Below the pieces are notes generated by a model that saw only the letters and a list, made by a program, of their open reading frames with translations, made no database searches and was not told the origin of the DNA. The translations under genes were made by a program, and so were the position numbers. 64,000 bases of DNA from an uncultured bacterium (GTDB lineage Bacteria; Bacillota_I; Bacilli_A; RFN20; CAG-826): contig CASDRB010000012.1 in NCBI GenBank assembly GCA_949283025.1, forward strand, positions 62,001-126,000, read 5' to 3'. Below, in pieces: positions 35,841-38,084 of this stretch. Position 1 is the first letter of the stretch. The number at the start of each line of letters is the position of its first letter.

Positions 35841-36614
35841 TTAGATAATTTTTTCTAACTCATTAATAATGTTATTCAATTTATCAGCAATCTTTGAATA
35901 ATCAACGTATAAAGTTTGATACAAATCAACAATATTTTTTTCAAAATTAAGTGGCAAGATTTTGCAATTTTGTTTGCAAAGTTGTATCAATCTTTTTTCG
36001 CCAGGATGAGTCAATTCATTTATAGCAAAAATTATATCAAAATATGAGGCCATAAACTCCGTTGTGCGGTGATTGATGCTATTAATATCGTTTCTTTCAA
36101 CAGCCTTTAATATTTGATGTTCAAAATTAGGCAAGCCGTAACGCAATAACTTCATATTTCGCTCAATTATATTTTGTTTTAATTGTAAAGGATATTTACA
36201 TGTATAACGTTTTTTTAAAGCTGCTAATTTACCATTTTTATCGAAAACAATTTTGCAAGTTATTAAATTATGCCACATACATGTCGTGTAACAATTATGA
36301 GCAATGTGTTTATCTACAACAAGAGATATATCGTTTCCAAAATCATCAAGATTTCGATATAAAATGTCAATATCGACACCGTTTTTTAAAACACAATTAT
36401 CCTCATATTCCCAAAAGTGATTTCCAATTTCTATTTTTTGGCAATATTTTTGTAATATGTTATTTCTAGTTTTCTCATCAATTTTGTCATTAATGTATAA
36501 ATAAACATCATAATCAGACTTATCATCAAAAACGGTTCCTGCTCTAGAGCCACCTAACGCTATTGCTTCTACTTCATCTAATTTAGATAATTCTTCAAAT
36601 AATTGATCAATCAT
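35841..36614 (-). CDS. Nucleotidyltransferase-fold protein (DUF4037-like)
   Basis: 257 aa. N-terminal nucleotidyltransferase signature: ALGGSRAGTVFDDKSDYDVY (about 19-38) with the GGSRAG loop and DYD metal site, and a third acidic residue in VDIDILYRN near 88. The C-terminal half is helical with no motif I can name. Aminoglycoside adenylyltransferase-like proteins and DUF4037 enzymes share this layout; substrate cannot be assigned and resistance is not implied. It lies downstream of the Val-Thr-Leu tRNA cluster behind a terminator. Confidence 0.78.
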   Translation of the reverse strand: MIDQLFEELSKLDEVEAIALGGSRAGTVFDDKSDYDVYLYINDKIDEKTRNNILQKYCQKIEIGNHFWEYEDNCVLKNGVDIDILYRNLDDFGNDISLVVDKHIAHNCYTTCMWHNLITCKIVFDKNGKLAALKKRYTCKYPLQLKQNIIERNMKLLRYGLPNFEHQILKAVERNDINSINHRTTEFMASYFDIIFAINELTHPGEKRLIQLCKQNCKILPLNFEKNIVDLYQTLYVDYSKIADKLNNIINELEKII

Positions 36615-36649
36615 TGCATTTCTCCTTTTAAATAATTTTACAATTAAAA

Positions 36650-36670
36650 AGGTTTGATTTACTCAAACCT
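36650..36670 (-). terminator. Terminator of the Val-Thr-Leu tRNA cluster
   Basis: Minus-strand hairpin AGGTTTGA-GTAAA-TCAAACCT followed by TTTTT, 15 nt after the CCA of tRNA-Leu. Confidence 0.85.
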
Positions 36671-36684
36671 AGTATTTCAAATGT

Positions 36685-36769
36685 TGGTGCGGGCGACAGG
36701 AATCGAACCTGCATGCCTTGCGGCGTTAGATCCTAAGTCTAGTGCGTCTGCCAGTTTCGCCACGCCCGC
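36685..36769 (-). tRNA. tRNA-Leu (anticodon TAG)
   Basis: Minus-strand 85-nt cloverleaf with variable arm and encoded CCA. Acceptor stem GCGGGCG/CGCCCGC, T-arm GGTTCGATTCC, anticodon loop CTTAGGA with TAG reading CUN. Confidence 0.93.
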
Positions 36770-36813
36770 ATAATGCGGTGCGTTTATGATTCTCACTATA
36801 TACTTTAACAAAA

Positions 36814-36889
36814 TGGTGCCGACTATCGGAATCGAACCAACAACCTACTGATTACAAATCAGTTGCTCTGCCAATTGAGCTAAGTCGGC
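36814..36889 (-). tRNA. tRNA-Thr (anticodon TGT)
   Basis: Minus-strand 76-nt cloverleaf with encoded CCA. Acceptor GCCGACT/AGTCGGC, D-arm TAGCTCAATTGGCAGAGC, anticodon stem CTGAT/ATCAG with loop TTTGTAA, T-arm GGTTCGATTCC. Confidence 0.95.
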
Positions 36890-36898
36890 GTGTTTTCC

Positions 36899-36973
36899 TG
36901 GTGGACACTACAGGGATCGAACCTGTGACCTCTTCCGTGTGAAGGAAGCGTTCTCCCGCTGAACTAAGTGTCC
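36899..36973 (-). tRNA. tRNA-Val (anticodon CAC)
   Basis: Minus-strand 75-nt cloverleaf with encoded CCA. Acceptor GGACACT/AGTGTCC, anticodon stem CTTCC/GGAAG with loop TTCACAC, giving CAC (GUG codons). A CAC valine tRNA is a secondary isoacceptor; a TAC species is presumably elsewhere. Confidence 0.85.
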
Positions 36974-37186
36974 TCATAAACGCTTGTTTATATTATCAAA
37001 AAATAAATAAATATTCAATATCAATATTTATTTTTTCTTATTTTGCCAATAGATTAAAATCCAAATAAGAAAATTGATAATTCATATGAATTATAAAATT
37101 TATTTTTTGAAATTATATATCTCAAGGGTGTGTTCAGGGTATAATATAGATGGTTCCAAAAAAAGTTCTGTGTAGTTATTACCTTA

Positions 37187-37261
37187 CTATATTATGCCTA
37201 GTAATAAAGCAAAGATAACAATCATAGTTACAATTATTTGGAACTTTTTTTGTAATCTCAT
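37187..37261 (-). CDS. 24-residue hydrophobic peptide, candidate type I toxin
   Basis: Below usual ORF-size limits. The minus-strand ATG at 37261 is preceded by GAAAGGAG with 6-7 nt spacing, one of the best SD sites in the window. The frame has 24 codons and a TAG stop. It begins MRLQKKFQ, then a continuous hydrophobic stretch (IIVTMIVIFALLLGII), i.e. a short positively charged head and one membrane helix, as in Fst/TxpA/Ldr-type toxins. An 11-bp inverted repeat (AAAAAAAGTTC at 37158-37168 and GAACTTTTTTT at 37241-37251) would pair the start region with the 3' untranslated region. No homology search was possible. Confidence 0.5.
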   Translation of the reverse strand: MRLQKKFQIIVTMIVIFALLLGII

Positions 37262-37296
37262 ATTAGACTCCTTTCTAAGAATTAATCTCGTTAATA

Positions 37297-37320
37297 AAAA
37301 CACCACAACTTGCTTGTGGT
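37297..37320 (-). terminator. Hairpin with T-run upstream of the micro-ORF
   Basis: Minus strand: ACCACAA-GCAAG-TTGTGGT-GTTTTT, a good intrinsic terminator or attenuator located 35-60 nt before the micro-ORF start. Confidence 0.6.
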
Positions 37321-37456
37321 ATAATGAGGTTTAATTGTTAGGAAGGATGGGTAGTGTGTTAAATAAGCCTATTTATCAGCGTTAGGTGGATATTAAGTTT
37401 AAAAATAAAAAATGATGGATATTAGGAATATACCTTTTCCATCTAATCTATTTAAA

Positions 37457-37480
37457 AACTAGGCTAGTCCTAGTTATTTT
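37457..37480. terminator. Hairpin downstream of tRNA-Ile, usable on both strands
   Basis: Stem AACTAGG / CCTAGTT with 5-nt loop; T-rich on both sides. On the minus strand it would end the tRNA-Ile transcript. Confidence 0.75.
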
Positions 37481-37485
37481 TATTT

Positions 37486-37562
37486 TGGTGGGCCTTAATA
37501 GACTTGAACTATCGACCTCTCCCTTATCAGGGGAGTGCTCTAACCAACTGAGCTAAAGGCCC
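37486..37562 (-). tRNA. tRNA-Ile (anticodon GAT)
   Basis: Minus-strand 77-nt cloverleaf with encoded CCA. Acceptor GGGCCTT with AAGGCCC, D-arm TAGCTCAGTTGGTTAGAGC, anticodon stem CTCCC/GGGAG with loop CTGATAA, T-loop TTCAAGT instead of the usual TTCGAAT/TTCGATT. Confidence 0.95.
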
Positions 37563-37645
37563 ATTTACGTTTTTCAACGCTTTAATAATATACAATAGAC
37601 TTAAATAAAAAGCAACCATATTTTTATTGATTTATGAAAATAAAA

Positions 37646-37666
37646 AAACTCCCATTTGGGAGTTTT
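37646..37666 (-). terminator. Terminator of rplM-rpsI
   Basis: Hairpin AAAACTCCC-ATT-TGGGAGTTTT about 22 nt after the rpsI stop, with T-rich flank on the minus strand. Confidence 0.85.
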
Positions 37667-37688
37667 AATTAACAATATGCTCAAACGA

Positions 37689-38084
37689 TTAACGTTTAGA
37701 GAATTGTGGAGCTCTTCTAGCAGCTTTAAGACCGTATTTCTTACGTTCTTTAACACGAGCATCTCTTGTAATCATGCCAGCCACTTTTAAGGTTTTGCGA
37801 TCAACACCCGCCTCCAATAAAGCGCGAGCTAAACCTAAACGAATGGCACCGGCTTGACCAGTAAATCCACCACCTTTAACTTCTGCTCTAACATCATATT
37901 TATCAGCAGTATTTGTTAAAGTTAATGGTTGTTTTAAATCCATCACCAATGTTTCATAAGGCATATATTCGTGAACATCGCGTCCATTCACAACAATGTT
38001 GCCCTTGCCTAAAGTGACATAAACGCGAGCAACTGAGGATTTTCTACGACCTGTGCCGTAATATTGAACATCTTTTTTAGCCAT
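37689..38084 (-). CDS. rpsI: 30S ribosomal protein S9
   Basis: 131 aa, standard length. [16 protein letters not shown] at the start, [19 protein letters not shown] in the middle, and the basic C-terminal tail [17 protein letters not shown] that reaches the P-site tRNA. 14 nt after rplM, the universal pairing. Confidence 0.99.

Follow-up and report, generated by a model that had tools for sequence, protein, structure and literature searches.

A probable membrane micro-gene between two tRNA genes

Downstream of rpsI, we found a 24-codon minus-strand ORF (37261-37187) encoding the peptide MRLQKKFQIIVTMIVIFALLLGII, which is very probably a real micro-gene for a membrane peptide. The window, the whole 64-kb stretch of DNA analysed, covers positions 62001-126000 of one contig (C12) of a 1.2 Mb genome (G000), whose nearest relatives by ribosomal protein L13 were MAGs from rumen and gut that carry the names Bacilli, Erysipelotrichaceae or Bacillales. 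The statistics lend good support to a translated membrane micro-ORF whose mRNA pairs with itself. A type I toxin-like membrane peptide is the leading but unproven function, to which we give slightly less than even chances.

The ORF, its Shine-Dalgarno (SD) sequence GAAAGGAG (37275-37268, minus strand) and the peptide's basic head and one hydrophobic helix were directly observed, confirming this part of the original prediction. The stop codon is TAG, followed by TAA as a double stop, and the frame is not continued downstream. For comparison, 3000 dinucleotide-preserving shuffles of the 512-nt intergenic gap were screened for ATG ORFs of 15-60 aa behind AAGGAG, AGGAGG or GGAGGT. Any such ORF occurred in 0.5% of the shuffled gaps, and one with a membrane-grade helix in a single shuffle (1/3000, 0.03%). 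The real 64 kb contained three SD-preceded ORFs of this kind, of which the micro-ORF was the sole hydrophobic one. Given this rarity in shuffles and its singularity in the window, there is very little chance that the micro-ORF is noise. It is accordingly quite unlikely that the AT-rich spacer holds just a chance ORF or a truncated signal peptide. In favour of that reading are the lack of conservation, the frequency of hydrophobic frames in DNA of this composition and the other weak hits that were signal peptides (L161), but the 1/3000 frequency and the TAG TAA ending speak against it.

Distribution of the micro-ORF and turnover of the tRNA gap

The micro-ORF is located between tRNA-Ile(gat) (37486-37562) and tRNA-Val(cac) (36899-36973). 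The gene order rpsI, Ile, Val, Thr, Leu was constant across the taxonomic family, with an Ile-Val gap of 512 nt in the window genome and of 40-160 nt in most family members. In the congener G003 (L241, 88-5655) the same gap held 5.6 kb of other genes, named from their translations alone as an opposite-strand nucleotide-binding ATPase, a long ABC-transporter frame and a 134-aa membrane protein. A second congener, G001, had the Val-proximal part of the gap in common with G003, and the promoter-like TTGAAT...TAATAT of tRNA-Val (36993-37022, minus strand) was alike in both. The variability of the site is a direct observation, and on this comparison the gap reads as a site of turnover with the micro-ORF as its cargo in the window genome. 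Judging from the 5.6-kb content in G003, it has the appearance of a recurrent insertion site. The original prediction had described tRNA-flanked gaps as common sites for toxin modules; the gap is variable within the genus, with completely different contents between congeners, while the toxin module itself remains plausible only. Between the micro-ORF and tRNA-Val we also observed a 58-nt AT-rich palindrome centred on CATATG (37057-37114) and, near it, a second inverted repeat (36999-37039).

A homologous ORF in close relatives, named beforehand as a check, was found neither in the 4 congeners nor in 219 other family genomes. Searches with the peptide across 224 family genomes returned hits with E values of 0.016 or worse, mostly in long frames. 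No homolog was found in phages and plasmids, pattern searches of viral contigs gave no match, and the genome itself carried no second copy of the micro-ORF. The gap DNA gave nothing but short AT-rich matches against 39 relatives. Because the whole gap differs in those congeners where it is readable, the absence in congeners is best read as a missing island rather than as decay of the ORF.

The peptide had no match in Pfam, NCBIfam or PHROG, and Rfam recognised tRNAs only on the window stretch. These searches also bear on a second explanation, a non-toxic small membrane protein, i.e. a regulatory or structural miniprotein whose RNA structure is incidental. The micro-ORF looks translated, its N-terminal basic head resembles that of Prli42-like miniproteins, and similar peptides from other genomes (L163 and L164) showed weak similarity to the NCBIfam Prli42 model (E 1e-4 to 9e-4, below cut-off). 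The window peptide itself, however, had no hit to Prli42 (NF033880), hence lies below the curated cut-off, and such proteins are usually conserved within a genus, which this peptide is not. We therefore regard a miniprotein as a somewhat unlikely explanation.

Predicted structure of the micro-ORF transcript

The inverted repeat reported between the start region and the sequence after the stop is present and slightly longer than claimed, with 12 rather than 11 perfect base pairs and an extension to 15 nt at 93%. Its 5' arm CAAAAAAAGTTC spans codons 4-7 (37252-37241) and its 3' arm GAACTTTTTTTG lies in the 3'UTR (37168-37157, both read on the minus strand). A repeat of at least 12 bp at these pre-fixed arms occurred in 4 of 5000 shuffles. 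The repeat is suggestive but not decisive, because about 4% of shuffles have one of this length somewhere in the gap. In the predicted fold the 3'UTR pairs with the region around the start codon and with codons 4-7, and in the MFE structure of an RNA that extends as far as 37141 the helix of the 5' arm continues over the AUG. The hiding of the start originally proposed for the mRNA is thus predicted for this longer form, with an AUG pairing of 80%, but much less so for an RNA ending at 37158, where pairing drops to 17%. The minus-strand fold of 37440-37140 had an energy of -53.2 kcal/mol (z -2.1).

A predicted imperfect 84-nt hairpin (37347-37264, minus strand) covers the SD and encloses a terminator-like hairpin ATACCACAAGCAAGTTGTGGTGT with a U run (37322-37300) upstream of the micro-ORF. 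The arms of the larger hairpin, CCTTCCTAACAATTAA (37346-37331) and TTAATTCTTAGAAAGG (37285-37270), are paired at 14 of 16 positions. Its MFE of -21.5 (z -4.2) was equalled by none of 500 shuffles. By pairing probability the SD was hidden equally well in 58 of 200 shuffled leaders, and pairing of the SD with just the leader therefore counts as weak evidence. Ribosome sites of type I toxins are often sequestered (PMC4147584).

Promoters, terminators and a possible antisense RNA

A convergent antisense RNA had been proposed to start from a plus-strand TATAAT at 37140-37145. This motif exists, but as a -10 only: there was no TTGACA-like -35 at spacers of 15-19 and no TG in front that would make an extended -10. 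The window plus strand contains 57 TATAAT motifs, i.e. about 0.05 per 60 nt. The motif was thus rejected as a proven promoter, and the antisense RNA from 37140 is unsupported. A better site on the same strand is the extended -10 (TRTGN-TATAAT) promoter-like TGTGGTATAAT (37315-37325), which is directed away from the micro-ORF and towards a terminator-like hairpin AACTAGGCTAGTCCTAGTT with a T-rich tail (37457-37475, plus strand). With the terminator about 140 nt after the promoter (37315-37475), the two delimit a candidate small RNA of about 145 nt. Such an RNA would be antisense to the micro-ORF leader, provided that the leader is transcribed. Its 5' end would complement the anti-SD arm of the leader, so that pairing could free the SD and not block it.

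Read on the minus strand, the hairpin at 37475-37457 is followed by TTTTTAAAT and would terminate the tRNA-Ile transcript. Because tRNA-Ile reads into this hairpin, the module would be transcriptionally separate, barring read-through. The best promoter candidates for the micro-ORF, TTTAAA-18-TATATT and TTAACA-17-AACAAT, were both within shuffle expectation, as were promoters on either strand of the module overall (6 found and 5.0 expected). The scan of the module sequence yielded no convincing promoter for the micro-ORF or for an antitoxin RNA.

A structured-mRNA peptide family in related genomes

A weak hit of the window peptide (L126/L164, MVMRKKFRKVVTLLIVVALLLALLGA) led to further loci, among them a family termed R1 here. 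The R1 covariance model, built from three loci (L165, L166 and L175), detected 18 loci in 16 of the 224 family genomes, several with E values below 1e-20. One more genome, from another family of the class (G411, L245, E 3.6e-30), brought the number to 17, and because this locus lies outside the family, horizontal spread of R1 is suggested. The R1 peptides are KK...ALLL membrane peptides of 21-27 aa and of the KKTIILLIIAALLL type; intact members encode MSSIKKTIILLIIAGLLLALIN, MRLIKKTIILVIIAALLLTLVS, MCLIKKAIILLIIAALLLVLMN, MRSFRKTITVLIIVALLLAVC, MQKKRAIIALLLVVSLLLALFG and alike. Loci assigned to R1 include L222, L223, L225, L226, L227, L231 (1501-1690), L238 and L245. Decayed copies, frameshifted or without the 5' half, were also found (L224, L228-L230, L232-L235), as would be expected of toxin genes.

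An unfitted MAFFT alignment of 11 R1 members indicated pairing between 5'UTR and 3'UTR and a hairpin within the coding sequence, with compensatory changes in 18 of 39 pairs. The R1 SD is strong and hidden in the predicted RNA. Most intact members have an antisense promoter (TTGnnn-16/18-TATTAT-like) on the opposite strand about 36 nt past the stop, and its position is constant although the flanks differ. No Pfam or NCBIfam family scored over cut-off for R1, and there was no significant PHROG or Rfam match. R1 has the look of a type I toxin-antitoxin family of gut Bacilli that has not been described before, and it is a firmer candidate for novel type I biology than the window locus.

We also noted two GC-rich relatives, L163 (genome G093) encoding MSRKRRRKVIALLIIAALLLALLGS and L164 encoding MVMRKKFRKVVTLLIVVALLLALLGA. 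At L164 (1400-1650) a 30-codon ORF lies behind AGGAGG and its TGA overlaps the ATG of the peptide, resembling the translational coupling of mok/hok. The host of L163 and L164 is uncertain because G093 is 6% contaminated.

The window locus and R1 resemble each other in peptide length (21-27 aa), KK head, ALLL core, a strong SD predicted to be hidden, a predicted 5'/3' fold-back and an intergenic position. They differ in that the R1 arms pair 5'UTR with 3'UTR, whereas the window arms pair codons 4-7 with the 3'UTR. The micro-ORF could be a decayed or stand-alone relative of R1, a family of sister genera, with an RNA part diverged beyond recognition. MRL-KK and ALLL are common to MRLQKKFQIIVTMIVIFALLLGII and MRLIKKTIILVIIAALLLTLVS, the spacing from stop to antisense -10 is similar (41 nt at the window and 36 nt in R1), and the best pairwise match, to L164, was equalled or beaten by a single one of 2000 segment shuffles. 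However, the window peptide scored 11.6 bits against a profile from which it had been left out, and 313 of 5000 segment-wise shuffles equalled or exceeded this (p ~0.06); the RNA model gave no hit in 36500-38000 of the window, in its genome or in its genus; and the antisense site has no -35, with no R1-style promoter downstream of the micro-ORF. Membership in R1 fails on the RNA model and the antisense promoter. We rejected homology to the R1 peptides as unproven, and a diverged R1 relative is improbable. The window ORF is better described as an apparent analog of R1 that would, if it works, work in the same manner. It is unlikely, though conceivable, that uncultured gut Bacilli possess a broad, undescribed group of type I toxins of 21-27 aa, in which the window ORF is an outlier that evolves fast and R1, characterised by self-inhibiting 5'/3' fold-back mRNAs and a conserved convergent antisense promoter, is the better-behaved branch.

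Proposed function and comparison with known systems

The toxin interpretation is made plausible by the ORF, SD, helix and repeats and is weakened by the lack of a relative and of a clear antisense antitoxin. In its favour are an SD-preceded transmembrane micro-ORF beyond chance, the 12-bp repeat, the SD hairpin (z -4.2) and the island-like gap, as well as R1 from the same taxonomic family, which likewise combines a hidden SD with a 5'/3' fold-back and in addition shows covariation and conserves an antisense promoter. Against it, the peptide had no homolog in the 224 family genomes, in phages or in plasmids, promoters were not above shuffles and 58/200 shuffled leaders hide the SD. The positive charge of the window peptide is N-terminal, while in type I toxins it is mostly C-terminal (PMC8309996).

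We propose that a small accessory gene for a 24-aa single-pass membrane peptide was inserted between the tRNA-Ile terminator and the tRNA-Val promoter. Its full-length mRNA would be poorly translated, the SD being paired to the leader and the start-codon region to the 3'UTR. Only once processing, truncation or the loss of an RNA partner opens the fold-back would the peptide be made; it might then insert in the membrane and depolarise it. Transcription, membrane insertion and toxicity are what we infer from the architecture. Annotation passes over genes of this length, and next to nothing has been charted of the type I toxins of uncultured gut Bacilli. By itself the window locus is a modest candidate; R1 offers covariation-backed loci for direct tests of a type I mechanism.

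Membrane type I toxins are shorter than 60 aa with one helix (PMC8309996), which the window peptide fits in size and hydrophobicity, and as in their genes we found a short hydrophobic ORF with its own SD. Fst/Ldr toxins are likewise small single-helix membrane peptides of type I loci, but the window peptide contains no proline and hence no PXXXGC, the motif of that family (PMC8309996), and has no charged C-terminal tail. The Ibs/Sib systems of E. coli share no sequence similarity with it, and there Sib, a strong antisense RNA, spans the entire ORF and the SD, whereas no such RNA is demonstrable at the window locus; alike are the almost purely hydrophobic peptide of about 20 aa, the intergenic position and the absence of a protein partner. 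The toxins of bsrG/SR4, txpA/RatA and yonT/SR6 in B. subtilis are longer (YonT 58 aa), and their antitoxins are proven, compared with a bare -10 at the window. Their antisense RNAs converge from the 3' side, an arrangement that had been proposed for the window locus, and they share with it a host among the Bacilli, a strong SD and, by prediction, a structured mRNA.
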